Origin: a virus | Virus record (IMG/VR): IMGVR_UViG_3300028299_000015 | Location: 1 to 33,003 of that record | Length of the DNA: 33,003 nucleotides | Reading direction: 5' to 3' (one strand) | Shown here: positions 4,994 through 22,335 of the stretch, in pieces | Layout of the letters: each line of letters opens with the position of its first letter | Numbering within the stretch: the first letter of the stretch is position 1 | Program-made: the position numbers and the translations under genes | Notes under the pieces: generated by a model | Databases searched by the model: none | Seen by the model: only the letters and a program-made list of their open reading frames with translations | What the model was told of the DNA's origin: nothing

Positions 4994-5428
4994 TTATTTT
5001 AAGAATTCCTCTAATTGTTCCCGCGTATTATTTTTCTTGCCATATTTCTTATGAAATTCTCTATGAGCCTTTTCTGACAGAGTAATTCCATTATCGAGAG
5101 CAAGTCGTAATTCGGGATATTGAGAAAAGTTTTTGATATGATGTGGATGTAGATATTCTCCTTTTATACCATACTTTTGACATGTCCAATTGTCTCTGGC
5201 AAAAATTGCTTCACGCCATAGTCTATATTCTATTTTTGCCTTAAATATTTTTGACTCAGAGCTACTTCCGTTTTTCCAATTCCAGTGATTTTTCCCTCTA
5301 ATGTTGTCTCTTATCTTACCCCTGAAAATAGATGGTTTACCTTTCTGGAATCCATGAGTGTTCCCTATGGCAGACTTACTCATATGTTTTTTATGTATAT
5401 CGGTTTGTTTATATCCCTTTTTTGGCAT
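4994..5428 (-). CDS. HNH homing endonuclease in front of the capsid gene
   Basis: A 144-residue free-standing HNH endonuclease. The N-terminus (about 1-55) has basic NUMOD-like DNA-binding character. The core holds HHIKNFSQYPELRLALDNGI (catalytic His-His, then Asn) followed by HREFHKKYG. Its C-terminus EQLEEFLK is shared with the HNH at 16863-17438, so the two are paralogues. An AGAGG site lies 8 bases before the ATG. It stops 54 bases before the capsid TTG, in the same frame, and lies between two inverted repeat arms. These enzymes nick or cut DNA and spread their own gene; no structural role is expected. Confidence 0.93.
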   Translation of the reverse strand: MPKKGYKQTDIHKKHMSKSAIGNTHGFQKGKPSIFRGKIRDNIRGKNHWNWKNGSSSESKIFKAKIEYRLWREAIFARDNWTCQKYGIKGEYLHPHHIKNFSQYPELRLALDNGITLSEKAHREFHKKYGKKNNTREQLEEFLK

Positions 5429-5627: not shown

Positions 5628-6053
5628 CTAGGTGGTGCCTTTTCCGCCCGGACCGATGTTGAGAATAACCTCAGCTTTGGTCGTGGATAGATATTTCGTT
5701 ATCTGAACAATGTCGTACGTTGAACTGGCGCGACTAACATGAAGTGAATCAGTTAAATCGCAGTACAGACCTACATCCGCCACTACTAGAGTAGCGGTAA
5801 CGTCCGCAGTCCAAGTGACATAATTCTCTAACGGAACTTCCACCGGCAATAATCTCGCAACAGCGTAATCATCGTCGGTCGCAGCGACTGCTTTGCGCAG
5901 TACTCCGGCCGTTGCCTCATTCGCAGTCGTAGAAGTTGCCGCGATTAACGTACCGCTGTCCCAGCAGACCAATGAATGATCTGATAGAGCACCGGCTGAC
6001 GCAGCCACAGGGAGATACATGATTTTCGTTCGTCCTTGTTTTCGTATAAACAT
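5628..6053 (-). CDS. Probable head decoration or capsid-accessory protein
   Basis: A 141-residue protein placed immediately before the capsid gene, a usual place for head decoration proteins. It is rich in Ala, Thr and Val (SAGALSDHSLVCWDSGTLIA, VARLLPVEVPLENYVTW) and reads as a small beta barrel. It has no signal peptide or membrane segment. The start at 6053 (MFIRKQGRTK) is chosen as the longest; a second Met lies 11 codons in. Family not recognised with certainty. Confidence 0.6.
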   Translation of the reverse strand: MFIRKQGRTKIMYLPVAASAGALSDHSLVCWDSGTLIAATSTTANEATAGVLRKAVAATDDDYAVARLLPVEVPLENYVTWTADVTATLVVADVGLYCDLTDSLHVSRASSTYDIVQITKYLSTTKAEVILNIGPGGKGTT

Positions 6054-6129
6054 ATGCGTTTTTTTGTTACACTAACCCAATCTACTTCGACTTTAAAATT
6101 AGTTAGATTGTACCCTTATTTTTTTTCCA

Positions 6130-6166
6130 CGAGATTAAGCGTCTTCTCTGACGTTGTGGTATCTCG
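6130..6166 (-). other. Stem with internal loop downstream of the tRNA
   Basis: CGAGAT pairs with ATCTCG, then across a small internal loop AGCGTC pairs with GACGTT (one G-U), closed by a six-base loop. It lies 23 bases beyond the tRNA 3' end in the gene-free stretch before the decoration-like gene. It may help tRNA 3' processing or stabilise the message. No T-run follows on the minus strand, so it is not a classical terminator. Confidence 0.4.
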
Positions 6167-6188
6167 CCTTAACGCCGGCGATGAGCGA

Positions 6189-6263
6189 TGGTTGCGGGAG
6201 AAGGATTTGCACCTCCGGTCTCGGCGTTATGAGCGCCGCGAACTGCTACTGTTCCATCCCGCT
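6189..6263 (-). tRNA. Initiator-type tRNA-Met (CAT) with encoded CCA
   Basis: A 75-base cloverleaf. Acceptor positions 2-7 are GCGGGA with TCCCGC; position 1:72 is an A-A mismatch; the D stem is GAAC/GTTC; the anticodon stem is CGGCG/CGCCG with loop CTCATAA (anticodon CAT); the T stem is GGAGG/CCTTC; the end is ACCA. The unpaired 1:72 position and the A11-U24 pair are bacterial initiator features, and the general layout follows tRNA-fMet. Deviations: the three anticodon-stem GC pairs are not in GGG/CCC orientation, the D loop (AGTAGCA) lacks the GG pair, and the T loop is TGCAAAT instead of TTC-. It lies between head genes and is flanked by two hairpins. Confidence 0.88.
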
Positions 6264-6268
6264 TTATT

Positions 6269-6297
6269 GGGCAAGTTAATTTTAGTTTAACCTGCCC
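6269..6297 (-). other. Strong hairpin immediately 5' of the tRNA
   Basis: GGGCAGGTTAA pairs with TTAACTTGCCC over 11 pairs (one G-U) with a 7-base loop. It starts 7 bases after the stop of the 146-aa gene and ends 5 bases before the tRNA. There is no T-run after it on the minus strand, so a processing or mRNA 3'-protection element is more likely than an intrinsic terminator. Confidence 0.6.
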
Positions 6298-6303
6298 GCT
6301 ATG

Positions 6304-6744
6304 CTATTCCCCGAGTTGTTCAAGAATTCCCACTAGCGTTCTCAATTGCCACTCCGGTATTGGTTGCCTCTCTGCGACATTCTGCCCTGGAACACTCTTT
6401 GCTGTTATGCTTAGCAAGAAACCCTTCAAGAACACTGTTTGATCTAACGTCAATTCAATCTGTTTCTTATCGTTCATCCATCCTTCCGTGAATTTATCTT
6501 TCAACTTAAGAAATAACTTATAGTCCTTCAGATCGTATAACCGAGTGTCAAACTTCATGAATAGTCCGTTCAATAATCCCATGTAGTCATCTCGCTTGTA
6601 CACCTTCTCTCCGTTCAAATCTTTTACCTGCTTCCCCTTTTTATCTATTCCTTCTTCTTGGACCATATCGATGACTATCGGTTTGATCTTGTTCTCCGGC
6701 GCCACAGATGACGCGCCAGTATCTTTCATTTGTTCTTTGCTCAT
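6304..6744 (-). CDS. Head-module protein of unknown function
   Basis: A 146-residue soluble protein, Lys- and Asp-rich in the first 50 residues (MVQEEGIDKKGKQVKDLNGE) and helical afterwards (FLKGFLLSITAKSVPG, QLRTLVGILEQL). It lies four bases after the 145-aa gene and just before the tRNA, within the head gene block. It could be a head-completion or tail-assembly factor, but nothing in the sequence names it. The pair with the upstream 145-aa gene is probably a co-translated unit. Confidence 0.6.
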   Translation of the reverse strand: MSKEQMKDTGASSVAPENKIKPIVIDMVQEEGIDKKGKQVKDLNGEKVYKRDDYMGLLNGLFMKFDTRLYDLKDYKLFLKLKDKFTEGWMNDKKQIELTLDQTVFLKGFLLSITAKSVPGQNVAERQPIPEWQLRTLVGILEQLGE

Positions 6745-6748
6745 AAGT

Positions 6749-7186
6749 TTATTTTTTTATGCTTTTTAATATTTGCTGAACATCGACCATTGTCCTCTCG
6801 TAAAGTTTCTTACCCCATAACTGTTCTGACGCGCCATCCAGACTCATGTTGATTGATGTTGCGGTCAGAGTTAGAAAATGGTCAATGTCTTCTACTTTAA
6901 CCTCTGCCTCTAAGAAAACTTCCAATATTTTATTCACCACTATCCGGCCCATTGCCTCTCTGAGTTTAGTCATGTCGCCCTGATCCACTGTGATGATCTG
7001 CGACACTATCTCTAGTGGCCTTTCCTCTATTGAATCGTCTTCGTAGGTGATTTTGACCACATCTTTCTTGCCGATGAAAGTCTTTCTGTCAATCGGCTCC
7101 ATGAGTTTGACCTTCTTCGGGCCGATGAAGTTCGAATATGAGACATTCGGAGTTGATACTCCGCTTGTAGTTGATTCTTCTACCAT
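6749..7186 (-). CDS. Head-module protein of unknown function
   Basis: A 145-residue protein. The first 30 residues are Ser- and Thr-rich, followed by a beta-like part (KKDVVKITYEDDSIEERPLEIV) and a helical C-terminal half (VNKILEVFLEAEVKVEDIDHFL, ERTMVDVQQILKSI). It has no catalytic motif or membrane segment. It is followed directly by the 146-aa gene. An HNH gene has been inserted between it and the upstream 170-aa gene. Structural or assembly role is inferred from position only. Confidence 0.6.
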   Translation of the reverse strand: MVEESTTSGVSTPNVSYSNFIGPKKVKLMEPIDRKTFIGKKDVVKITYEDDSIEERPLEIVSQIITVDQGDMTKLREAMGRIVVNKILEVFLEAEVKVEDIDHFLTLTATSINMSLDGASEQLWGKKLYERTMVDVQQILKSIKK

Positions 7187-7203
7187 ATCTTTTTTTTATT
7201 AAG

Positions 7204-7737
7204 CTAGTTAACGAATCTTTGTTTAAAGAATTCAATCCAATATTCTCTGCGAAAATTGACCTTTGAATTACATCTTCTACAAAGTGTAATCAAATTTTCG
7301 GGATTACAATTCTTTTTATCATAGTCAATGTGATGAACCGTGTCGCCGTATTGACTACAATTCTGACAAATATAATTATCTCTTTCTCTAATTGCTCTTT
7401 TAAGAGTTTGCGTCCATTCTACAGGATAAGATTCAAAAGATACTCCACCCTTCCAATTCGAAGACTTCTCTCTCAATGCCTTGCCTTTTCTATTTATGGA
7501 CATTTTTTCTATCGATTCCTCTGAATGATGTTTACCCAACATTCCTTTTCCGTTGTTTTCGCTAATCTTATTTCTAGTTTCTTTTGAATGGTGTTTGCCC
7601 CTCATTCCATAATTAGGATTTATCTTAGCGTTTCTTACCCTTGCTTCTCTAAATAATGGTGTAATTTTTCTAGTCTTAGCTCCCTCGCTCATTCTTTTTA
7701 AAGCATATTCCGAACGTTTATAAACTCCCATTGGCAT
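7204..7737 (-). CDS. NUMOD3-HNH homing endonuclease
   Basis: A 177-residue endonuclease. Two NUMOD3-type DNA-binding repeats are visible (GKHHSKETRNKI and GKHHSEESIEKMS, about residues 48-80), then WKGGVSFESYPVEWTQTLK and the HNH core with CQNC, HHIDYDKKNCNPENLITLC and CNSK, ending NFRREYWIEFF. It is intact in all key residues. It sits between two head genes with short A/T-rich junctions. The same architecture occurs at 9201-9650 and as a fragment at 8284-8458. Confidence 0.96.
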   Translation of the reverse strand: MPMGVYKRSEYALKRMSEGAKTRKITPLFREARVRNAKINPNYGMRGKHHSKETRNKISENNGKGMLGKHHSEESIEKMSINRKGKALREKSSNWKGGVSFESYPVEWTQTLKRAIRERDNYICQNCSQYGDTVHHIDYDKKNCNPENLITLCRRCNSKVNFRREYWIEFFKQRFVN

Positions 7738-7763
7738 AATAAATAATTATATTTTTATGTTCA

Positions 7764-8276
7764 TCAATTTACAAACCGCACATCAATATTATACTCCTTG
7801 CCGCTCTCCAGTGATATGACTTTTAATGCCACATCGCCGGTCGCCTCATCTACCATTTTCTGCGCGATCTTTGCTTTCTCTTGAGTATAAAGTCGATTAA
7901 AATCTCTTAGATTATATTTACCAGTGGTCCCGTCATCGAATATCACTTCCAATTCTTGCGCCTCTACCCATCTCTGCGTGACCGGATCCTGATAAACTTC
8001 GTCTCTGGTAGTTCTCCATCCAAGAATAATCTTGCCAGCTATTTTTCTGAGTCTGACTTCTTTGGGGATTGCCGTTTGATGTCGAGAATACCACAACGCC
8101 ATCTGTTTCTTGTCTGCCACCGAGATCAGCATATCTCTTTCGCCTCTCATCGCATCCATGTCCTTCTTCATACTCTCAACCAATTTGAGAACATCTGCGA
8201 GTTGTGGCTTTGACGCGGCACCGGCACCCAGTTCTTTTTCTACCGTTGGCTTTTTCGCTTGTTTTGATTCTGTCAT
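7764..8276 (-). CDS. Head-module protein of unknown function
   Basis: A 170-residue protein. The N-terminal 25 residues are Lys/Ala-rich, residues about 27-60 look like a short coiled coil (VLKLVESMKKDMDAMRGERDML), and the rest has alternating strands (RLRKIAGKIILGWRTTRDEV, ELEVIFDDGTTGKYNLRDFN). No known motif is seen. It lies between the scaffold-like gene and other head genes, with an HNH fragment in front of it and an intact HNH gene behind it. Confidence 0.6.
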   Translation of the reverse strand: MTESKQAKKPTVEKELGAGAASKPQLADVLKLVESMKKDMDAMRGERDMLISVADKKQMALWYSRHQTAIPKEVRLRKIAGKIILGWRTTRDEVYQDPVTQRWVEAQELEVIFDDGTTGKYNLRDFNRLYTQEKAKIAQKMVDEATGDVALKVISLESGKEYNIDVRFVN

Positions 8277-8283
8277 ATAGATG

Positions 8284-8458
8284 TTAAATTAAATTTATTA
8301 AATTATTTTTCCAATACTCCCTGTTAAATTGTGTCCTTCCGTGACATTCATCACATAATGTTATTAGATTTCCAGGATTACAATTCCTCCATTTTATTTT
8401 TAGTTGCACGAGAATGTTTCCTCTCTATGAACCCTGAATGTCCTTTAACAAATGACAT
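8284..8458 (-). pseudogene. HNH endonuclease remnant
   Basis: The minus strand starts ATG with a NUMOD3-like MSFVKGHSGFIERKHSRATK, which soon stops. In another frame the end of an HNH domain is plain: NCNPGNLITLCDECHGR followed by TQFNREYWKNNLI and a stop. This matches the C-terminus of the intact HNH at 7204-7737. The catalytic His-His segment is missing. It is therefore an internally deleted, frameshifted homing endonuclease between the scaffold-like gene and the 170-aa gene. Confidence 0.88.
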
Positions 8459-8460
8459 AA

Positions 8461-9099
8461 TTAAATAAGGTTGTATTTCTTAAGTTCTTGGTCATCGATG
8501 CCAAGATTGTGCGCTACATTCTCTGCGCCAGGAGAAAGCTTACCCTCTGTCGGCATCTTTGTTTGAGGGATTCCACCTTGCGCCGAGATCACACTAGCGC
8601 TGAAAGGATTCACTGGCCGGCCACCGGTTGCCAAGATATACGCCTGATCGATTCTCTGCTTTCTCTCATCCTCTGTCGCAACATCTCCCTTAAACGAATT
8701 ATAGAAAAATAATACCTTGTCTTTCAATTCCTTCTCATCTCCTACCAGATTGCCGATCATGTCCTCAACGACTTTCTTTTTAGCTGACGCGCCAATCTCC
8801 TCAATCTTTTTGCTGGTGTCTGCTTTTACTTCTTCTATGCTCTTTTTCAATCCCGCTATCTCGTCTTCTCTATCCTTGATCACCGTGCGTTGGCCGGCGA
8901 GATTCTTATCCTTAGCTTTCTCTGTCGCTAGTGCCGATTCCTTTTCAGCGAGTTGAGTATTTAGATCATCGATCTCTGCCTGACGATCAGCGTTGGCTTC
9001 ATCGATTGCTTCGGCCCGGACATCAGCTAGCTTTGACTCTACTTCTGCCGGCGTTAATGCTTCGACGGTATTACCGTCCTTGTTTGTGTACTGTCCCAT
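8461..9099 (-). CDS. Probable capsid scaffolding protein
   Basis: A 212-residue protein. Residues about 18-120 form a charged coiled coil (Ala, Glu, Lys, Asp-rich, almost no Pro), followed by a helical patch and a flexible Gly/Pro-rich tail. This layout, and the position between portal and capsid genes, is what phage scaffolding proteins show. No protease motif is present, so it does not look like a protease-scaffold fusion. Start at 9099 (MGQYTNKDG) follows an A/T-rich leader without Shine-Dalgarno. Confidence 0.65.
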   Translation of the reverse strand: MGQYTNKDGNTVEALTPAEVESKLADVRAEAIDEANADRQAEIDDLNTQLAEKESALATEKAKDKNLAGQRTVIKDREDEIAGLKKSIEEVKADTSKKIEEIGASAKKKVVEDMIGNLVGDEKELKDKVLFFYNSFKGDVATEDERKQRIDQAYILATGGRPVNPFSASVISAQGGIPQTKMPTEGKLSPGAENVAHNLGIDDQELKKYNLI

Positions 9100-9200
9100 A
9101 ATAAATTTAATTAAATTGTCTTAATTAAGGTTTCGACTTTTACTGCGCCTTTGTTAACAACAGAGCGCGAAACTGCGAGAGTCGACCATTAAACATTGGC

Positions 9201-9650
9201 CTAGCTAAAATAAACTATCCAATATCCCCTATTAAAATTTGTTTTTTGGTGGCAACTGTCACAAAGAGAAATAAGATTTTTGGGGTCAAGGTTGTCTTTA
9301 TTATAATCTATATGATGAACAGACAATTTTTTGTGCCACCCCACTAATTCATTTTGATGTATTCCACAACCAGACATCTGACAAGTATGTTTGTCTCTTT
9401 TTCTAATACTTTCTTTTAAATCATCGGTCCAATCGCTTGGATACGGTTCTTCCCATATTCCACCCCGCCAATTTGGATTTTTATCTCCCCTTTGAGCTTT
9501 TCTAAGTTTATTTAAAATTTCTTCTGAAGGATGTCTTCCTATAATTCCATTAGGACCAAAACCGTTTTTATTTCCTTTCATCTTCTCCTTTATTTTTCTC
9601 TTAGTTTCTTCTGTGTGATGTTGGCCACTCATTCCTTTGCTTTTAGACAT
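9201..9650 (-). CDS. NUMOD3-HNH homing endonuclease
   Basis: A 149-residue endonuclease with two NUMOD3-like repeats (GQHHTEETKRKI, GRHPSEEILNKL, residues about 9-50), the linker WRGGIWEEPYPSDWTDDLK, and an HNH core: CQMSGC, HHIDYNKDNLDPKNLISLC, CHQK, NFNRGYW. It lies between the 119-aa gene and the scaffold-like gene. The 100 bases downstream (9100-9200) hold no gene but show a TCGACT/AGTCGA stem. Same architecture as 7204-7737. Confidence 0.95.
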   Translation of the reverse strand: MSKSKGMSGQHHTEETKRKIKEKMKGNKNGFGPNGIIGRHPSEEILNKLRKAQRGDKNPNWRGGIWEEPYPSDWTDDLKESIRKRDKHTCQMSGCGIHQNELVGWHKKLSVHHIDYNKDNLDPKNLISLCDSCHQKTNFNRGYWIVYFS

Positions 9651-9668
9651 ATTATTAAATTTTATTTT

Positions 9669-10028
9669 TTATATCTCTCCTTTCTCCGGCGGTTCCTCTG
9701 CTGGCCTGAACTTAGAATGCGAGATATTTATTTGATCACTAAACCAATTCTGTATCAGAATCAATCCGTTGATTATTCCCCGATTGAACATCAGCTGATC
9801 TTGATTCTGCGCCTTCGTTCCTATCTCTATGAGTTGCGCCCAGATAAAAAGCTTTAATACTTTTTCAAAATGCGACCGATAGAATGACTCCGATGATCCC
9901 GCTCTCTCGAAGAGTTCCGCCTCATCTAACTTCTCCTTTTCTAATTCATAGATATCGTCCATATCGATTGACGCGAGCTCATGCCGCAATAGCGTGATTA
10001 TCTTTTCACTGTCCAATTGTTCGCTCAT
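9669..10028 (-). CDS. Small acidic helical protein after the portal
   Basis: A 119-residue acidic protein, mainly helical (EKIITLLRHELASIDMDDIYEL, VLKLFIWAQLIEIG, INGLILIQNWF). It has no motif I recognise. It lies 24 bases downstream of the portal gene, in the slot where head-assembly chaperones or connector proteins are often found. An intact HNH gene follows it. Function is not assigned. Confidence 0.6.
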   Translation of the reverse strand: MSEQLDSEKIITLLRHELASIDMDDIYELEKEKLDEAELFERAGSSESFYRSHFEKVLKLFIWAQLIEIGTKAQNQDQLMFNRGIINGLILIQNWFSDQINISHSKFRPAEEPPEKGEI

Positions 10029-10052
10029 ATAAAAATTATTTTAATATTAAAA

Positions 10053-12119
10053 TTATTGTTGGCCATTGGCGCCTGGCTGTTGAATGCTTACTCTTGGCCT
10101 TTTTATCATTGGCGCTGATCCACCTCCATTTTGCTGTTCTGGCGCTACTGGCGCGCCTCCTGGCGCCACTACTTGCCCTCCTGGCTCCATACCTGGTATC
10201 ACTGGCGCTATCGTTTGCTTCTCGAACAGCTTGGTTGGGTCCTCTTCCCACACCTCGGCAAATCTCTCTTCGATGTGCGAAGGATTGAATACTAGTCCAA
10301 GATTCTTGCCTTGAGTTATCATTGTCTCAAACATCAGTTTTGACATCTCGCTTGATTTCTTCTCTCTGGCCACGACGTTGACTGTCCAAGTTAACTTCGC
10401 CTCTTCTAATTCCCTTGGGTTCAATGCGATGATTCTAAATGGCACGCCATATTGCTCTTGCATCTGATCTTCCCTGTTCATCAATTCTTCCGATGTCATC
10501 TTCTCTTCGGTTGGCATAACCATCCGAATGCCTGGCCCTTCGCCATCAATATTCCTTTGCCTGCTTACTATTCGATATCTATTTCTTAACGCCTGCCTTG
10601 CCTTGTCTAGAACATTATCGATTGGATTGAACCAGTTCTTGAGCAGAGTCATCAATCTTAAAATTGCTAATTTCTTTTCCAATAAACTGGCCGTAAATAT
10701 TGTTAACCCTAACATCATCTTAGCCTGTCGTTGAATCTCTACGATCTGAGTCGCAGTGACTTGGCCTGATTCTGGAGATCCGGTGAACGTCTGCGAAGTC
10801 GTGTCGCGGTCAATGCCATTGGTCATCAGTTTAATCATACTAAATTCTCCATTGGTCACGCCCTGCACTTCGTATGGAGATATCGGCACCAACGTTCCCG
10901 GCTGAATGCCCATCGTGATTGTGTTCGGCCGTAATACGTTTGGCGATATAACCCTGCCACTAGTATTAACATATGGCGGCAAATAAGATTTTTTATCTTT
11001 AAGCAATGCCAGTTTTGTCATCTCGTCCAGCATCTGCACTGGATTTTTATTTTCAAATAAAAATGATTTGCCATACGAAAAGTCTGCTCTGATTGGTTTA
11101 TAGTTTTGTTGCGCGATATTATATTCTCTGTGGCCCCATGGAAAAGGAAATCCAAGAGGCAACATCGGAACGCTGTTGATAATTATTTGATACTCGCTGT
11201 CCGGCTTGCTCTGATATTTTATAACTTCTAAATCTTTATTCTCGCTCATCGCCTCTAGCAATCTCCAATCTCCTCTGACCATTGTTCCCATCGCTTGTCC
11301 GCCGGTGAATGAAACTGTCGCGTTGGGATTAACATGCTTGAACATTTCAAATCCTCCGTAGATTGCCTTTGCCTTCTGAAATGAAAGATATTGCACTGTG
11401 AAAATGTATGGCTGTTCGCTGATTAAATATTTCGTCAGATCTCCCAGATAAACAGAAAGACCACTCAGAATATTTCTGGTTGGTCTGCCTTGTTGCCTTA
11501 CTATTTTATTTTTTATTTTTACTCCGCGAAATTGTCCGTGATAATTTCCCACGACTTCTCTCTCTATCACTAATCTATCATCCCATAATTCTTCCACGAA
11601 CACGAAGCCCTGTTTTAACATTTCATATTGCCTTAGCATTTTCTTTTCTTCGTCTTCGTCCAGCTCTTCTGTTTTGTCAATCACATCTTCCATCGCGTTT
11701 CCTAATTTCGTAATTGCTATTTCGTCTTCATTGTATGCGACGATGTCAGCTGACAAATTTAATCCTAGCAATGAAGATAGAAATCCGAATAATTTTGTTC
11801 GAAGCGTTCCCGATTTATATTGAATATCATTTTTATCTTTCTTCGGTTTCAATTCAACGTTCGCCATCGCCTCATTCGATTGATGATATTCGGTAAACGT
11901 CATGTAGTCAAACTCTTTGTGATTTTGCTCTCTGATCGTCGCAGAATTTTCTAATTTCTTTTGAAGTTTGTTCAGATATTTTTGCTCTTCCTCTGAATAA
12001 GTTGGCGGCACAATAACAAGATTCTCTTGATCTTCGACGAGAACACTATTTGTTGGCGCTGTTAATGTTACTCCATTCATCTCCGGCGCTGTTAATGTTA
12101 CTCCCCCTTGATTTGCCAT
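10053..12119 (-). CDS. Portal protein
   Basis: A 688-residue protein directly after the large terminase. The length, the mixed alpha/beta body with long helices (about residues 520-620), the central tunnel-like region and the disordered Pro/Gly/Gln-rich C-terminus (residues about 640-688) fit a phage portal, the dodecameric ring at the capsid vertex that passes DNA. I choose ATG at 12119 (MANQGGVTL): the longer upstream extension in the same frame is the remains of an HNH gene read in the wrong frame. Two copies of GVTLTAP near the N-terminus come from a 20-bp direct repeat. Confidence 0.85.
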   Translation of the reverse strand: MANQGGVTLTAPEMNGVTLTAPTNSVLVEDQENLVIVPPTYSEEEQKYLNKLQKKLENSATIREQNHKEFDYMTFTEYHQSNEAMANVELKPKKDKNDIQYKSGTLRTKLFGFLSSLLGLNLSADIVAYNEDEIAITKLGNAMEDVIDKTEELDEDEEKKMLRQYEMLKQGFVFVEELWDDRLVIEREVVGNYHGQFRGVKIKNKIVRQQGRPTRNILSGLSVYLGDLTKYLISEQPYIFTVQYLSFQKAKAIYGGFEMFKHVNPNATVSFTGGQAMGTMVRGDWRLLEAMSENKDLEVIKYQSKPDSEYQIIINSVPMLPLGFPFPWGHREYNIAQQNYKPIRADFSYGKSFLFENKNPVQMLDEMTKLALLKDKKSYLPPYVNTSGRVISPNVLRPNTITMGIQPGTLVPISPYEVQGVTNGEFSMIKLMTNGIDRDTTSQTFTGSPESGQVTATQIVEIQRQAKMMLGLTIFTASLLEKKLAILRLMTLLKNWFNPIDNVLDKARQALRNRYRIVSRQRNIDGEGPGIRMVMPTEEKMTSEELMNREDQMQEQYGVPFRIIALNPRELEEAKLTWTVNVVAREKKSSEMSKLMFETMITQGKNLGLVFNPSHIEERFAEVWEEDPTKLFEKQTIAPVIPGMEPGGQVVAPGGAPVAPEQQNGGGSAPMIKRPRVSIQQPGANGQQ
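12055..12104 (-). repeat. Two 20-bp direct repeats at the start of the portal gene
   Basis: GGCGCTGTTAATGTTACTCC occurs twice on the plus strand, at 12055-12074 and 12085-12104, 30 bases apart. Read as protein this doubles GVTLTAP at portal residues about 6-25. It lies next to the HNH remnant, so it may be a small duplication made during repair of an insertion or deletion there. Confidence 0.9.
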
Positions 12120-12311
12120 ATAATTTATAATGTAACATATAATGACATTCTCGGCATAGAGTAATGCCATTATCTAAATTAAATCTTAGTTTAGAATATT
12201 TTGTCCAAGACTTTATATGATGTGCTTGTAAATAAATCGGCTCTCCCTTTTTATCTTTCTTAATGAAACCAGATTATTACCCTTTTGAAATCCTTTTAAT
12301 CCTTTTGGCAT
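12120..12311 (-). pseudogene. HNH endonuclease remnant upstream of the portal
   Basis: ATG at 12311 gives MPKGLKGFQKGNN, like the N-terminus of the HNH at 4994-5428. After a deletion and frame change the end of an HNH core follows: LQAHHIKSWTKYSKLRFNLD, NGITLCRECHYMLHYKLYGK. The central DNA-contacting part is missing. The remnant runs up to the portal ATG and explains why the portal frame appears to extend upstream. Confidence 0.88.
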
Positions 12312-12478
12312 ATATTTTATAAATAAATAAAAGGGCCGTCTTTATTTTTCATAAAAATTTCCCTTTTCTATTTAATTTAATTGTAGTCTTATTTTTTAAT
12401 ATCGCAAGCGTCCTCTCATAAAGTTATCCCCTGTTTACCAACAACCATTTTGTCGATGCGGTGAATATGGTTTCGCCT
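12312..12478 (-). terminator. Gene-free stretch after terminase with a terminator-like stem
   Basis: About 165 bases between the large terminase stop and the HNH remnant. On the minus strand AAAAGGG pairs with CCCTTTT followed by ATTTATTT, and AACCAT pairs with ATGGTT nearer the terminase stop. The first is a weak terminator candidate because of the A/T-rich tail. Only tiny frames of 7-13 codons occur, and I do not call them genes. Confidence 0.3.
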
Positions 12479-13897
12479 CTATTCCGGGAACGGATTGTGC
12501 GGGTCAAAACTCTTGTCCTCTCTCATCCTTTCCATCTCTTCTTCTTCTGGGTCCATCGGCACCATGTCAATCGTAGCGAACGTATTGGCCAGCGCATCAG
12601 CCACGTCCGGCGATTGTATTCCATCCTTCAGCATATCCTCTTTACTCATTATCTGCATCTTGCCTCGCTTGCCCTCTAATTGCACCCGATACCTTATTTT
12701 AGATAATTCATACCAGTCGTCATCTCTCTCTAGCTTTCCCCCGGCCAAGACCCATTCTCTCAATCTCCAATAATTCTCCGCTCTCTTATTTACGAACCTA
12801 CTCTCATCGATTGCCTTCTCTGCGTTGTTGACTCCTATCACCCATCCAGGTTTCATTCTGTTTAGCAAATCATAATGGCCCTTGCCTACTCCTATTTTAT
12901 CAATGGCCGCCTCCTGCGGATTATCACTTTCTTTTATGTTCAGCACCACCTCGACCAAGTTCATTGTGTCCGGATCCCCGCTCTTGTGCAACTTGCGCGC
13001 GAAGTTTGAATATCTTTGAATCACTACGCTGAAGTTCTTGCCACCGCCGGCCACATCCACTCCTAATTTATTTACTCCGAACCCTCTGGCCGTATCAATC
13101 ATCGCCCGCTCGACTTCATCTCTTGTCAATAATTGTATCCATCCTTTGTTCTCCATAATTCCTTGCTTTGGAAATTTGCACTCATAGAGCACATCGAAGA
13201 ATGGCTGTTTGCGCATCTCGTCTACATACGCCGGCAAGAGTCTTCCTTCTTTTATTGCCTGATGATAGTCGATTATTACTTTATGATAATTATCGTCATC
13301 GTGAGATTTTCTAAAGTGATCGCTCTCCCAGGGATTGCCAACCTTAACCAAAAAATTCTCTGGTTGATCGCCCAACATTCTCATCACCAGCGCGTGATCA
13401 TTCTCGTTGATCAGAGCGCTCTCGTCCTCTACTACATTCGGCGCGCCCAATCCCATTGCTCCGGCGGCCGTAGTAATAAACAATTCACCCAACAGTCCGT
13501 ACCCTAAATTAAAATTTATTTTATCCTTATTTCTAAATCTCTTAATTCTCTCTTCATCTTCTCCTTTGGCGAAGATAAATTTTGCTCGCATATACTCACT
13601 GTCAAAAATATGTTTAATACAATCGCCAATGATGATTCCCGCCTTTTCTTTTTCTCCGGCCGCTATCGCCCACTTCTCTGCATAGGTTGAAATGCGCGTC
13701 AGCACCGCCATTGAAATCGTTTCTGATTTTCCGTAGCGGGTCGGCGTTTCAATATGAACGCGCGGATGCTTTTTCTTGGCGATTGCGTCGAATATCTCTA
13801 CTTGGCCATCTGTCAAAATAAATGGCTGACCCTTGTCATTTTTGAAGAATCTCTTGACCCACTCCCGACTATTTGTTTTATCATCAAAGTCTACCAT
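12479..13897 (-). CDS. terL: Terminase large subunit
   Basis: A 472-residue packaging motor. The ATPase half shows Walker A TPTRYGKS (about residues 51-58) and Walker B VVEDES (about 155-160, Glu catalytic). The C-terminal RNase-H-like nuclease begins with GVDVAGGGKN (first Asp about 281) and ends with SPDVADAL (last Asp). It cuts concatemeric DNA and pumps it through the portal. ATG at 13897 is preferred over a TTG three codons upstream because GAGGG precedes it. It follows the small subunit by about 100 bases and precedes the portal, the normal phage order. Confidence 0.96.
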   Translation of the reverse strand: MVDFDDKTNSREWVKRFFKNDKGQPFILTDGQVEIFDAIAKKKHPRVHIETPTRYGKSETISMAVLTRISTYAEKWAIAAGEKEKAGIIIGDCIKHIFDSEYMRAKFIFAKGEDEERIKRFRNKDKINFNLGYGLLGELFITTAAGAMGLGAPNVVEDESALINENDHALVMRMLGDQPENFLVKVGNPWESDHFRKSHDDDNYHKVIIDYHQAIKEGRLLPAYVDEMRKQPFFDVLYECKFPKQGIMENKGWIQLLTRDEVERAMIDTARGFGVNKLGVDVAGGGKNFSVVIQRYSNFARKLHKSGDPDTMNLVEVVLNIKESDNPQEAAIDKIGVGKGHYDLLNRMKPGWVIGVNNAEKAIDESRFVNKRAENYWRLREWVLAGGKLERDDDWYELSKIRYRVQLEGKRGKMQIMSKEDMLKDGIQSPDVADALANTFATIDMVPMDPEEEEMERMREDKSFDPHNPFPE

Positions 13898-14002
13898 AAC
13901 CCTCAAAAGGCCTATCTTGGCCCATTATTGCCTATTAACGTCGCGTCACGATCGCGCTACGCTTGTTTATTTCTTATAGTCGCCCTATCACCCGACTATC
14001 TT
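13898..14002 (-). other. Hairpin-rich junction between terminase genes
   Basis: The gap between small and large terminase genes holds, on the minus strand, ATAGTCG/CGACTAT with a 10-base loop (13976-13999), then a CGCG/CGCG stem, then GGCC/GGCC around six bases just before the GAGGG ribosome site. No T-run follows the first stem. It may tune the ratio of the two subunits or stabilise the mRNA; the sequence does not show which. Confidence 0.35.
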
Positions 14003-14485
14003 CTAGCTTTCAAGCCACGTCTTCACTGAGTTCGTTAAATCCTCTAACGCCTGCGAATGAACATTCATCTGTTGACTCTCCTGCCACTGCTCGACGAACT
14101 GCAACCAAAGCTTTACCTCCGCCGCATTTCCTTGTTTCATTATCTGCCGGTAAATTGAGATCATCACGTTCGGCGTTAGCTTCTTAAGCCAGAACCCGAT
14201 GCTATCTTTTATTAAATTATCCTCTTCTATTTTTTTATTCCAGTCGCTTAATGTTTCTTGAGCCACTTTATATTTCGTCGCAAATTCGGTCTGATTTTTG
14301 AGTGTCAATAATTCCACCGTGATTGGGTCGTCGATTCCCAGCGCATTCATTTCGCTTATTGACTTTCCTTTTAGAATTCCAGGCAAGGATCGCCACATCA
14401 CATAAGTTTGGAAATCTTGCATCTTACGGACAGGACGCTTTTTTATTGGTTTAGTTTGGTGCTTAGTTTTTTCTACTCTTGGCAT
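14003..14485 (-). CDS. terS: Terminase small subunit
   Basis: A 160-residue protein directly before the large terminase. A basic N-terminal 25 residues are followed by a helix-turn-helix-like part (TEFATKYKVAQETLSDWNKKI, about residues 78-98) that would bind the packaging site, and a helical oligomerisation region (residues about 105-145). This length and layout are standard for small terminase subunits. AAGAGA lies six bases before ATG. The start overlaps the end of the 130-aa gene upstream by about 20 bases. Confidence 0.88.
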   Translation of the reverse strand: MPRVEKTKHQTKPIKKRPVRKMQDFQTYVMWRSLPGILKGKSISEMNALGIDDPITVELLTLKNQTEFATKYKVAQETLSDWNKKIEEDNLIKDSIGFWLKKLTPNVMISIYRQIMKQGNAAEVKLWLQFVEQWQESQQMNVHSQALEDLTNSVKTWLES

Positions 14486-14855
14486 ATTTTTCTCTTAATT
14501 TTTTAATTAAATCTTTTAATAAACGAGAATAGAATTCTGCTTGAGCCATTTTATACCCAAGCATAAATTGTTCCGACGATGCTACCGCCATCGTATCATT
14601 TATATATTCTATTTGTTTTTTCACCTCATCCAAAGTCTCTTTGGCTGTCGCTATCTTTGACCTCTTCATTATCTGACGACTTTCCTCTCTGACCCTACCA
14701 CCAAAAAAATTAAGTTGACAAAGAAGATAATCAAAATCACTCTTACTAACCTCAGCACCTTTCCTCATAAACCAACCAATAATATCGTTTGCTATTTTTT
14801 TATCCCACCTCTCGTCTGCCTTGTGTTCTCTATTAAAAATCTTCTTTATCGTCAT
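14463..14855 (-). CDS. Helical protein of unknown function upstream of terS
   Basis: A 130-residue, mainly helical, strongly basic protein (ETLDEVKKQIEYINDTMAVA, YSRLLKDLIKKLREKYAKSRKN). I use ATG at 14855 because the upstream TTG is weak. It overlaps the terminase small subunit by about 20 bases and is itself overlapped by the 44-codon gene upstream, so the three are probably translationally coupled. A packaging-accessory role is possible, but no family is recognised. Confidence 0.6.
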   Translation of the reverse strand: MTIKKIFNREHKADERWDKKIANDIIGWFMRKGAEVSKSDFDYLLCQLNFFGGRVREESRQIMKRSKIATAKETLDEVKKQIEYINDTMAVASSEQFMLGYKMAQAEFYSRLLKDLIKKLREKYAKSRKN

Positions 14856-14967
14856 ATGGTTCAAATTTAAAATAAATTATTCTAGATATTAACTTTATTA
14901 TCCAACACATCCATCTTGGATGATACTCCCCATAAACTTCATCAAATTGTTGCTCTGTTAATTTCAT
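14833..14967 (-). CDS. Small 44-codon protein
   Basis: The frame begins MKLTEQQFDEVYGEYHP and continues WMCWIIKLISRIIYFKF before an acidic end, DDKEDF. The middle is hydrophobic enough for a short membrane helix. It starts two bases from the stop of the DPPW methyltransferase gene and overlaps the next gene by 23 bases, which supports translation. Function unknown. Confidence 0.55.
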   Translation of the reverse strand: MKLTEQQFDEVYGEYHPRWMCWIIKLISRIIYFKFEPYDDKEDF

Positions 14968-14968
14968 A

Positions 14969-15460
14969 CTATTTTATCTCTTTTATCTTCTTAAACATCC
15001 ACACTGCCGAGACGTTGGCCCAGTTGTTATCTGTCCTCAAGAACACTCTCTCTAGCATAACATATTTTGAGGTTGGGCGCCACGTGCAGTTATAGATTAT
15101 CCTGCCGCCAGTCTTGCAGACCCTCATCGCCTCGAAGAATGGCGCCTGTCGCTTGAAAAAACTTAACTTCCAGGGCGGGTCGCTGATCACCGTGTCAAAT
15201 GTTTCGTTCGTGAATGGCAAGTGATTCATATCTGCTTTGACTACTTCCTCGCTCTGTGGCTCTAAATCTATTTTAACGTCTCCTAATTCTGACAATCCGT
15301 TGCAGATATTTATTGAGTAGCCGGCCACGTATGGCCTGATCAGATCCACTACTTGAATTGGCCACACCCAGCTCTCTTCCAATTGGCAATTCCTGTTTAT
15401 CTTACCGCCGGCCAGTTGACCGCCCTTCTTAACCTTTTTTCTCCTTAGGCTTTTGATCAT
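14969..15460 (-). CDS. SAM-dependent methyltransferase, probable DNA adenine type
   Basis: A 163-residue protein. DPPW at about residues 94-97 is motif IV of N6-adenine/N4-cytosine methyltransferases; ADMNHLPFTNETFDTVIS precedes it as in class I methyltransferases, and CKTGGRIIYNC resembles motif VI. The SAM-binding motif I is weak (INICNGLSELGDVKIDL instead of a clear Gly-rich loop). It is short for a stand-alone DNA methyltransferase. It overlaps the 54-aa gene upstream by 32 bases. With the C5-like gene nearby it may modify phage DNA against restriction; a role on other substrates is not excluded. Confidence 0.75.
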   Translation of the reverse strand: MIKSLRRKKVKKGGQLAGGKINRNCQLEESWVWPIQVVDLIRPYVAGYSINICNGLSELGDVKIDLEPQSEEVVKADMNHLPFTNETFDTVISDPPWKLSFFKRQAPFFEAMRVCKTGGRIIYNCTWRPTSKYVMLERVFLRTDNNWANVSAVWMFKKIKEIK

Positions 15461-15593
15461 AAAATAAATTATCTATTACTTTTAATTCCAATACTTTAGC
15501 AATTAGTTCTTTTAATCTTTGCTTTGCTTGCCACTCGAACCACTCGACAAAACCATCAACATATGTTTTATTGGTTTTGTTCATATGGTCCAT
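15429..15593 (-). CDS. Small protein between the two methyltransferases
   Basis: A 54-codon frame from ATG at 15593 (MDHMNKTNKTYVDGFVEWFE), helical in the middle (AKQRLKELIAKVLELKVID) with a Lys-rich end. A longer form would overlap the upstream methyltransferase stop. It overlaps the next gene by 32 bases. Coupling to both neighbours suggests a real gene, but no function can be read from it. Confidence 0.55.
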   Translation of the reverse strand: MDHMNKTNKTYVDGFVEWFEWQAKQRLKELIAKVLELKVIDNLFYDQKPKEKKG

Positions 15594-16862: not shown

Positions 16863-17438
16863 TTATTTTAAAAATTCTTCCAATTGTTCTTTATTGTTAT
16901 TCTTTTGTCCATATATTTTATGAAATTCTTGATGTATTGCTCTCATCAATGTTATCCCGTTATTTATATTCCAAAGTTCCTCACATACCAACGCCTGTTC
17001 CAATGTCTTAATTTGATATTCTTCAATTATTTTACTCAATGATTTAATATGATGAGACTCAATTTCACCAATTTTTTGACCAGACTTTTGACAAGTATAA
17101 TTATATTTTTCAAATACATCAGACCGCCACTGACGATATTTAAAACAATCCCTTATTCTATTAACTAATAATTTAAGTCCCCCTTTACCGTCAGAATTTT
17201 TTAATATCCGAAGAGATTCACTTATCTTCTTTCTAGTTTCCATTGGAAGATGTTTTCCCCTCATTGATTCAGATATTTTTCTTCTAGTAGTTTCTGAAAA
17301 ATGTTTACCGAACATTGGATTTTTATCACCAATCATTAAACCAGTAAGAGATTCACTCAAATGTTTTTTATGTTCTTCTGACAATTTTCTACCCGCTTTG
17401 CGTAGATAAACGCCACTTCTTCCCTTTTTTCCTGCCAT
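16863..17438 (-). CDS. NUMOD3-HNH homing endonuclease
   Basis: A 191-residue enzyme with a basic N-terminus and three NUMOD3-like repeats (LSEEHKKHLSESLTG, GKHFSETTRRKISESMRG, GKHLPMETRKKISESLR, residues about 18-75), then CFKYRQWRSDVFEKYNYTCQ and an HNH core with ESHHIKSLSKII and WNINNGITLMRAIHQEFHKI. The C-terminus EQLEEFLK equals that of the HNH in front of the capsid gene. It lies between a duplicated structured element (17451-17667) and the ParB fragment. Confidence 0.95.
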   Translation of the reverse strand: MAGKKGRSGVYLRKAGRKLSEEHKKHLSESLTGLMIGDKNPMFGKHFSETTRRKISESMRGKHLPMETRKKISESLRILKNSDGKGGLKLLVNRIRDCFKYRQWRSDVFEKYNYTCQKSGQKIGEIESHHIKSLSKIIEEYQIKTLEQALVCEELWNINNGITLMRAIHQEFHKIYGQKNNNKEQLEEFLK

Positions 17439-20796: not shown

Positions 20797-21282
20797 TTAT
20801 TTAATAAGTAAGTTAGGATTCTCATAGATATTGAAAGTCTTCCATTTGCGACTATTACAATTTCTACAAAGTGGTTGTATATTTTTGATAAAATCTGTTC
20901 CACCCAAAGAAAGAGGCTTAATATGGTCTTTAGTTAGTTTCTTATTCTCACCACATTTAGCACATTTATAATTAAATTTTTTACATAACTTCTGCCAATC
21001 TTCAAGAGTATGAGAGCCTTTAGCATATTTTTCTCTGGCATATCTTCTCGCTTTAAGGTGGGCAATTCTTTCTGGGTGTAATTTGGCATATCTTTTATAA
21101 TAAACTTGCTTATTTTCTCCTATTTTTCTTATGCCCCTATAGGCAAATTGCTCTTGAAATGGAAGTTTTGTTTTTCGAAATTCTGAATAACATTTTTGAT
21201 TACAAAAAACTCTCTTATATCGTTTAATAATTGATGGCTTTTTAATAACTTTCTTATTACAATTTGAACATTTTGTTAGCAT
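20797..21282 (-). CDS. HNH endonuclease with N-terminal zinc finger
   Basis: A 161-residue protein. The N-terminal CSNCNKK...CNQKCYSEF is a treble-clef-like zinc site. The C-terminal HNH core is CAKCGENKKLTKDHIKPLSL, GGTDFIKNIQPLCRNCNSRK (Cys2 pair, DH, N, Cys2 pair), complete in all catalytic and zinc residues. It is of the McrA/HNH type rather than NUMOD3. It lies between YopX and the unknown 177-aa gene. A homing role is likely from its company. Confidence 0.95.
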   Translation of the reverse strand: MLTKCSNCNKKVIKKPSIIKRYKRVFCNQKCYSEFRKTKLPFQEQFAYRGIRKIGENKQVYYKRYAKLHPERIAHLKARRYAREKYAKGSHTLEDWQKLCKKFNYKCAKCGENKKLTKDHIKPLSLGGTDFIKNIQPLCRNCNSRKWKTFNIYENPNLLIK

Positions 21283-21299
21283 ATAGTTATGATAGCACC

Positions 21300-21692
21300 T
21301 TATTGATTTTTAAGCAAGTGGCTATCTTGGTAGATATTGCCGATGACTTCACTGATTCTACGTAAACTTGAATCTTTATCATAAACCCAATTCTTAGTTC
21401 CTACTCTTTTTATGCCAAAACCAACCATTTCAAATCTTCCGTTCAAATACCATTCAATTATTCCTACACCAGCAAGTCCTTTTAACCTTACAATATCCCC
21501 TTCGTAAACATCCTTACCATTTTTATCGGTTAAGCCAGTGAATTGCATCATGACGTAATTTGTTTTATCTTCTACTACCTTTTTTAATTCCCTAAAAATC
21601 ATCTCTACATTCTCTCTCTTGCTATAAAAATCTAACTTAAGCATTTTTTCTATTTTTTTATCCCATGCCCTAAAACTTATTTCTCTTGTCAT
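21300..21692 (-). CDS. YopX family protein
   Basis: A 130-residue protein with all landmarks of the YopX family: REISFRAWDKKIEKML at the start, MMQFTGLTDKNGKDVYEGDI in the middle (residues about 48-67) and EVIGNIYQDSHLL at the end. The family is widespread in phages of Firmicutes and others; the fold is beta-rich and the function is not established. AAGAGA lies 7 bases before the ATG. The gene directly follows the tRNA-like structure. Confidence 0.95.
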   Translation of the reverse strand: MTREISFRAWDKKIEKMLKLDFYSKRENVEMIFRELKKVVEDKTNYVMMQFTGLTDKNGKDVYEGDIVRLKGLAGVGIIEWYLNGRFEMVGFGIKRVGTKNWVYDKDSSLRRISEVIGNIYQDSHLLKNQ

Positions 21693-21708: not shown

Positions 21709-21783
21709 GGGGTGAGGGGTGGGACTCGAACCCACTTCTTCGCCTGTCGGCGACGTCTGAACCCCTCGACTTTCCCTCACCCC
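21709..21783 (-). ncRNA. tRNA-like structure lacking an anticodon arm
   Basis: On the minus strand GTGGG-TTCGAGT-CCCAC is a perfect T arm, stacked directly on an acceptor-like helix: GTGAGGG with CCCTCAC, extendable to GGGGTGAGGG/CCCTCACCCC (10 pairs). Between them lie two further hairpins: GTC/GAC around a 10-base D-like loop and TCGCC-GACA-GGCGA, which resembles a class II variable arm. No 5-pair stem with a 7-base loop and no anticodon can be formed, and no CCA follows. It is therefore tRNA-like, not a working tRNA. Confidence 0.6.
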
Positions 21784-21803
21784 CGATTTGTTAAGTTTCC
21801 CAT

Positions 21804-21874
21804 CAATGTGCCCGAGTTTACGCGCGGACATATGTGGCGCTTTCGCGACCACAACTCTATTCTCAGGCACATTG
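21804..21874 (-). ncRNA. Long stem with GAAA-tetraloop hairpin, upstream of the tRNA-like fold
   Basis: CAATGTGCCTGAG pairs with CTCGGGCACATTG (13 pairs, one G-U) around 45 bases. Inside, TGTGG plus CGC pairs with GCG plus CCACA, closed by a GAAA tetraloop with one bulged U. GNRA loops on GC stems are typical of functional RNA. The region has no gene and lies 20 bases 5' of the tRNA-like structure, so both are probably parts of one RNA of about 170 bases. Confidence 0.6.
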
Positions 21875-21894
21875 TCGAAAGCTTACTTATTCCC

Positions 21895-22335
21895 TTAGTA
21901 CGGAATATCTTCAGGATTGATCTTGCTCTGACCCTCTTCATCCGGAGGCGGAGGAACATCTTCACTGCTCGCAGGTGTCTTTAATTTTCCCTCCACATCA
22001 TCAATCAACACAGTGAAGTCTTTGAATTGTTTTCCTTTTCTTTTCGGACTATCCTTCATTCCCTCGAAGATAATTTTGATCTTCGAATTAGTCTCGATCG
22101 CAGACATCTTGGGAGTCAGAACAGTCGAACCCCAGACACCAACATTCTCTTCTCCGGTATCAAGAGTATAAAGATTACTGCTATTCTCGCCGACGTTAAT
22201 CTTCACACCTACCAGAACTCCGGATATCTCCTTGGTATAGATATGCTTAAGACCTTTAGGGTCTTTTTCCTTGTGGTTGCCAATGGGATCCCATGTTTTA
22301 TCATTTTGAGGTGATACTTCTTTCCATGCACACAT
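21895..22335 (-). CDS. Single-stranded DNA-binding-like protein
   Basis: A 146-residue protein. Residues about 30-115 have the strand pattern of an OB fold (HIYTKEISGVLVGVKINVGE, LTPKMSAIETNSKIKIIFEG). The last 30 residues are acidic and Pro-rich and end NPEDIPY, very like the C-terminal tip of bacterial SSB (DIPF), which recruits partner proteins. It lies after the RecB/Cas4-like nuclease and an unknown protein. The 13-mer AAATAATTTTATG precedes the ATG. A replication or recombination SSB is my best reading; a plain OB-fold protein is possible. Confidence 0.5.
   Translation of the reverse strand: MCAWKEVSPQNDKTWDPIGNHKEKDPKGLKHIYTKEISGVLVGVKINVGENSSNLYTLDTGEENVGVWGSTVLTPKMSAIETNSKIKIIFEGMKDSPKRKGKQFKDFTVLIDDVEGKLKTPASSEDVPPPPDEEGQSKINPEDIPY

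Follow-up and report, generated by a model that had tools for sequence, protein, structure and literature searches.

A tRNA-derived element without an anticodon in a phage genome, and a similar architecture that recurs among phages

Among the tRNA mimics of viruses are the viral tRNAs (vtRNAs) of MHV68, which also adjoin hairpins, and the tRNA-like structures of plant viruses. Acceptor, T arm and elbow are the parts of a tRNA read by RNase P, the CCA-adding enzyme and EF-Tu, and recognition by RNase P depends on the acceptor and T arms and does not involve the anticodon. The usual explanations for the tRNA genes of phages are codon supply or the replacement of tRNAs that have been cut by defences. 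Phage tRNAs with altered anticodon loops have been proposed to counter tRNA-attacking defences (van den Berg et al. 2023, PMC10264068), and phage tRNAs rescue phages from the retron and PrrC defences (Nat Commun 2024, PMC11555353). For Cas12a3, stepwise removal of tRNA loops leaves cleavage of the acceptor stem or tail unimpaired (PMC12851939). Our literature search, outside which most subscription journals fell, found no description of anticodon-less phage tRNAs.

Structure and setting of the element in the window

The window, the whole stretch of virus DNA that was analysed, comprises 33,003 nt (IMG/VR record IMGVR_UViG_3300028299_000015, positions 1 to 33,003). All genes around positions 21709-21874 run on the minus strand, and in that direction the end of a gene for a 146-aa protein (21895) is followed by a long stem (21874-21804), 20 bases, a tRNA-like element (21780-21711) and the start of a YopX gene (21692). 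The features of the locus are:

21895 to 22335, minus strand: upstream gene, 146 aa, of no known family, in the same direction as the tRNA-like element
21804 to 21874, minus strand: structured element, a 13-pair stem closing a three-way junction (inverted repeat I1; z = -4.95)
21711 to 21780, minus strand: tRNA-derived element without an anticodon, a 70-nt cloverleaf with its 5' end at 21780 (RF00005, 35.0 bits; model R1, 31.0 bits)
21774 to 21783, minus strand: acceptor helix, 5' strand GGGGUGAGGG (inverted repeat I2, 100%; fold)
21755 to 21770, minus strand: D-like arm GUC-GAGGGGUUCA-GAC, 3 pairs, with A14 G15 and G18 G19 kept
21740 to 21753, minus strand: shortened anticodon arm, a 5-pair stem UCGCC/GGCGA in which the 4-base loop GACA (21748-21745) replaces the 7-base anticodon loop
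21719 to 21735, minus strand: T arm GUGGG-UUCGAGU-CCCAC, perfect over 5 pairs
21709 to 21718, minus strand: acceptor helix, 3' strand CCCUCACCCC, with C at position 73 and without an encoded CCA
21300 to 21692, minus strand: downstream gene, YopX family (PF09643; Pfam 4.5e-19), with its ATG 18 bases past the 3' end of the tRNA-like element

In a lax Rfam search of a 351-base stretch, the element exceeded the gathering score of the tRNA family (RF00005), with 35.0 bits against 29 and an E-value of 7.5e-6 for the stretch and 1.7e-7 for the genome, while it escaped both ARAGORN and an Rfam scan of the whole window run with default filters. The minimum-energy fold of 21780-21711 is exactly the cloverleaf, with pair probabilities of 0.86-1.0, and none of 200 shuffled sequences folds as well (z = -3.24). 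All 20 cloverleaf pairs are intact. The acceptor helix (21783-21774/21718-21709) is perfect over 10 pairs, the outer three of which lie beyond the normal 7-pair acceptor, and the 3' end reads CCCG. The G+C content is 63% in the element and 40% in the genome. These results bear out an earlier note on this DNA, made from the sequence alone, which had described a perfect T arm, a 7-10 pair acceptor-like helix and a D-like hairpin at 21709-21783 without an encoded CCA, and had taken them for a tRNA-like RNA lacking an anticodon. The D-like loop GAGGGGU (21761-21767, minus strand) can also pair over 7 bases with 21714-21720, an alternative to the cloverleaf.

The remaining hairpin, UCGCC-GACA-GGCGA, begins one base after the D stem and is separated from the T arm by a 4-base variable region (AGAA). 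Because the spacing and the lengths on both sides fit, the hairpin (21753-21740) is taken to correspond to the anticodon arm. Only 4 bases, not seven, form its loop, and the element is therefore without an anticodon and without U33. The earlier note had called it a variable-arm-like hairpin and held that no anticodon arm fits, a description that we revise. The D arm of the element, GUCGAGGGGUUCAGAC, which is equal in length and layout to GCCGAGUGGUUAAGGC, lies nearer the Ser/Leu kind, and this suggests an alternative in which a Ser/Leu-type tRNA would have lost its anticodon arm and kept its variable arm. Reading the hairpin as a shortened anticodon arm fits better, because four unpaired bases precede the T arm. 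Under either reading, the element is unable to decode.

The core of the element, according to the alignments to RF00005 and R1, has A8 instead of U8 and A48 instead of C48, with loss of the 15-48 Levitt pair, and there is an A10-G25 mismatch. These changes could mean that the element is decaying or that its core is of another kind. A histidine identity (G-1:C73) was considered, as position 73 is C; this is only a hint, since all four bases occur at position 73 among the phage elements described below.

Upstream, the 13-pair stem (21874-21862/21816-21804) consists of 12 Watson-Crick pairs and one G-U pair and encloses, as the earlier note had it, an 8-pair GAAA-capped hairpin (21853-21833, with one bulge), to which a 5-pair hairpin (21832-21819) is to be added; none of 200 shuffles folds as well. 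The stem lacks a T tract and is not terminator-like in an intrinsic-terminator test, and the lax search of the 351-base stretch placed no Rfam family above threshold on it. A pattern search yielded no homologue: six of its eight matches were one unrelated palindrome and the other two were unrelated sequences. The proposal that the stem and the tRNA-like part form one joined RNA of about 170 bases is not supported by these searches; the stem could belong to the tRNA-like RNA as its leader, or stand in the operon as an element of its own. Just before the stem, GCUUUCG (21876-21882, minus strand) is complementary to CGAAAGC (21839-21845) at the GAAA hairpin, so that a pseudoknot or an alternative fold is possible.

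The earlier note saw no gene in the stretch 21709-21874; three small ORFs cross it, and Pfam matches none of them. No sigma-70-like promoter or terminator was found near the tRNA-like element, which stands alone, with no other tRNA within 6 kb. The phage has a tRNA-Met gene of its own (CAT; 6189-6263, minus strand), which is initiator-like, with A1 opposite A72, a CTCATAA loop and an encoded CCA. Several HNH endonuclease genes are present in this phage, one of them at 20797-21282, just after the YopX gene, and two pairs of paralogous proteins are encoded on the minus strand (7204-7737 and 9201-9650, 42% identical; 4994-5428 and 16863-17438, 38% identical).

Anticodon-less tRNA-like elements in other phages

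Relatives of this locus were sought in several ways. A DNA-similarity search of 50,697 phage records returned none, an exact 24-mer of the locus found no close relative in viral contigs, and the neighbouring 146-aa protein as query led to no relative of the locus. One contig (L003) is 99.8% identical and covers positions 5950-15543 only, not the tRNA-like locus; in the more distant relatives identified by exonuclease or terminase (L002, L004-L006) the tRNA model detects nothing of this kind, the record of L006 having one tRNA match of 65.5 bits. That no homologue of the window element was found counts against the functional reading given below.

A first pattern, built on a Ser/Leu-type D arm, had 11 viral and 33 genomic matches, and these were not used as evidence for a class because several were permuted tmRNAs, lacked tRNA pairing or fell on an assembly gap (L040). 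Two permuted tmRNAs (RF04321) matched by it, L011:1503-1850 (minus strand, 82.9 bits) and L018:7336-7587 (minus strand, 78.1 bits), lie beside tRNA genes on phage contigs of 56 and 53 kb.

A class pattern was then built from a D arm of the standard class I type and a T arm, with a middle shorter than normal between them and no requirement for acceptor pairing. It matched in 101 viral contigs, giving 78 distinct elements with 69 different acceptor strands. The acceptor is paired at 7 of 7 positions in 45 elements and at 6 of 7 in 21, and the T arm at 5 of 5 in 76. The length of the middle is bimodal, with 11 bases in 22 contigs and 23 bases in 24 contigs, corresponding to two shapes. In one, the anticodon arm is entirely absent and only a linker remains, most often of eight bases (length 11), for example CTTGGGTC. 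In the other, which is the shape found in the window, a short stem carries a loop most often of about 4 bases, among which the GNRA-type loops GCAA, GGAA, GAGA and GAAA recur; the window loop, GACA, is not GNRA. Positions 8, 15 and 48 are not imposed by the pattern, and U8 is present in 76 of the 78 elements, with a 15-48 pair that is G-C in 64 and A-T in 10; for the short-stem shape alone, U8 is found in 35 of 37 and a G-C or A-T pair at 15-48 in 34 of 37. No other tRNA lies within 6 kb of 53 of 79 elements, that of the window included. A conserved gene neighbour of the class was not detected, and terminase, repressor and endolysin genes occur near the elements, as expected for phage contigs. 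A run of at least five T within 60 bases upstream was seen for 17 of 41 no-arm elements, as if they lay right after a terminator (e.g. L156:2960-3000).

Alignments with hand-specified structures were made for both shapes. The short-stem alignment (A1) has 92.9% of its cells paired and a covariation of 0.775, against 0.194 when shuffled and at most 0.202 when slid, and the no-arm alignment (A2) has 98.3% paired and a covariation of 0.774 against 0.165. Compensatory change, to which the earlier note had looked for support, is thus found for the wider phage class; because the elements may descend from different tRNAs, from which pairing may partly be inherited, this covariation alone is no proof of selection after the loss. 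Elements that share a linker (with at most 1 base difference) differ from one another at up to 9 of the 12 acceptor and T-stem pairs, largely by two-sided changes, and mostly remain paired. Double changes with no broken pair are seen in L061/L113 (3), L104/L121 (6) and L060/L142 (6), and broken cells in a few comparisons, for example L070/L140 (4). We regard the same-linker comparison as better evidence than the alignment-wide covariation, and convergent deletion to the same linker would be the remaining alternative.

One such element is encoded by a cultured phage, Polaribacter phage Danklef_1 (MT732458), where it is annotated as "tRNA-OTHER, Undet" (NNN). It is 86.7% identical over 60 bases to the element of a viral contig (L103), the flanks being without match, and one G-C pair of the T stem has become U-A between the two. 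Some members have probably arisen by recent deletion. The short-stem element L138 matches phage sequences, its close relatives, that have three more bases, as a normal 7-base loop would require, and it probably derives from an ordinary tRNA that lost them not long ago. The same is probable for some other short-stem elements, among which there may be pseudogenes.

As a control, the class pattern was run against 793 genomes from two bacterial phyla (395 and 398), in which it had a single match, containing NN; a strict-form pattern for normal tRNAs matches in 9 of 41 such bacterial genomes. Bacterial tRNA sets, then, do not in general include the anticodon-less form. The occurrence of anticodon-less tRNAs in dozens of unrelated phages, and their absence from the 793 bacterial genomes, suggests that they are kept for a job outside translation. 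The earlier note's reading of its candidate as a tRNA-like phage RNA is thus supported in kind. Ser-like tRNA genes that lack a full anticodon arm, while their acceptor and T arms are perfect, were noticed in three bacterial contigs (L026, L047 and L049); the one in L047 has a normal tRNA-Ser as its neighbour. Deletions, assembly errors or the phenomenon seen in the phages could account for them.

The short-stem model R1 ranked the window element first (31.0 bits, E 3.8e-9) without a loop insertion, while the true tRNA-Met of the same phage reached 28.9 bits and needed a three-base loop insertion. The normal tRNA model ranked the two in reverse, with 35.0 bits for the window element and 53.1 for tRNA-Met. 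The middle of the window element, TCGCC-GACA-GGCGA-AGAA, is of the short-stem type, for which a short stem with a 4-base loop is expected one base after the D arm and 4-5 bases before the T arm. Its D arm, GUCGAGGGGUUCAGAC, is not the class I arm GCTCA-GGT-AGAGC, a class feature imposed by the pattern, and with A8 and A48 it lacks the U8 and the 15-48 pair of the class. The 10 pairs of its acceptor helix are a further difference from the class. From its sequence, the window element would best be described as a divergent instance of the short-stem kind, not a proven member.

Possible roles and rival explanations

We lean slightly towards the view that the window element is a functional, non-decoding RNA derived from a tRNA. 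It appears to have lost its anticodon, with the arm cut to a 5-pair stem and a 4-base loop, and to have kept the acceptor, the T arm and the elbow bases of the D and T loops, so that it may be one case of a recurrent phage RNA in which the upper half of a tRNA is retained and decoding is given up. It would most likely be co-transcribed with its gene neighbours, and the transcript would most likely be recognised as a pre-tRNA and trimmed by host RNase P. The trimmed RNA could then mimic the top half of a tRNA and occupy a reader of the acceptor, the T arm or the elbow, not of the anticodon; candidate targets would be a tRNA-directed defence nuclease or toxin, RNase P, the CCA-adding enzyme or EF-Tu. 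An RNA of this form seems suited to the role of decoy or competitor, and yet that the window element acts by a specific decoy mechanism is, in our judgement, fairly unlikely.

The same features can be read as those of a tRNA pseudogene: the anticodon arm of a phage tRNA would have undergone a short deletion, and the gene, now functionless, would be decaying. Since U8 and the 15-48 pair are lost and no homologue was found, the window element could indeed be a decaying tRNA, and the mismatch at 10-25 and the missing CCA, which the true tRNA-Met of this phage encodes, point the same way. Such deletions seem to occur in phage tRNAs, as the L138 element suggests, and Ser-like tRNAs without an anticodon arm are sporadic in bacterial contigs (L026, L047, L049), one beside a normal tRNA-Ser. 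Against decay, none of the 20 cloverleaf pairs is broken, nor is any of the three pairs added to the acceptor, the G+C content has been held at 63% in a 40% genome, the element lies alone, outside any tRNA array, and the architecture recurs in many phages. We consider a pseudogene somewhat unlikely.

Two further explanations concern the position of the element. It might act in cis as a processing signal, at which RNase P would cut a polycistronic transcript between the 146-aa and YopX genes and leave YopX with a short leader. Genes on the same strand flank the element on both sides, the YopX start follows 18 bases past it just as the next gene in Danklef_1 begins 13 bases past its element, and RNase P recognition does not depend on the anticodon; in the class, however, only 34 of 70 elements have both neighbouring genes in their own direction, and we find this role improbable. 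An attP integration site with a host tRNA gene copied into it would fit the habit of many temperate phages of integrating at tRNA genes and carrying the 3' part of the tRNA. Such copies are usually a 3' portion, not a self-paired cloverleaf like that of the window, and no integrase was found among the window proteins scanned with PHROGs and Pfam, in a contig that may be incomplete, or among the commonest families beside the class elements, so that this explanation, already disfavoured, is very improbable.

As a wider and tentative hypothesis, plausible to us and held with reserve, phages of many lineages may carry a conserved class of RNA in which a short stem, often with a tetraloop cap, stands in for the anticodon arm or the arm is missing altogether, and which would serve as a non-translational mimic of the upper half of tRNA that blocks host enzymes or defences, the window element being a divergent member. 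A non-decoding upper-half RNA would separate codon supply and tRNA replacement from a third role, acceptor and elbow mimicry, and would point to host enzymes or defences that read only that part; Cas12a3, for one, goes on cleaving tRNAs after loops are taken away (PMC12851939). Standard tRNA finders miss such genes or label them undetermined, so the class could sit unannotated in phage genomes.

Comparison with known systems

The tRNA-Sec model (RF01852) gives the window element 30.2 bits, below its threshold of 47, and Tymo_tRNA-like gives the 351-base stretch 17.3 bits against a threshold of 40. The MHV68 vtRNAs and the plant-virus tRNA-like structures are tRNA mimics like the window element, but of eukaryotic viruses. 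Permuted tmRNA (RF04321) and tmRNA have a T arm and an acceptor without an anticodon, as does the window element, but they carry an mRNA-like domain that it lacks, and neither had an Rfam match in the 351-base stretch at E-values up to 5. The phage tRNAs considered as counters to defences (PMC10264068, PMC11555353) are replacement tRNAs with an anticodon, whereas the window element cannot decode.

With tRNA itself (RF00005), the window element shares the cloverleaf, a 7-pair acceptor, a D-like arm, G18 G19 and a 5-pair T arm with UUCGAGU; it differs in its 4-base loop without U33 or anticodon, in A8 and A48, in the extension of the acceptor to 10 pairs and in having no CCA. The Danklef_1 element and the other collected phage elements are like the window element in having a tRNA fold without an anticodon, situated between phage genes. 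The Danklef_1 element has no anticodon arm and has kept U8 and C48, whereas in the window element a short stem is present and both bases are lost.
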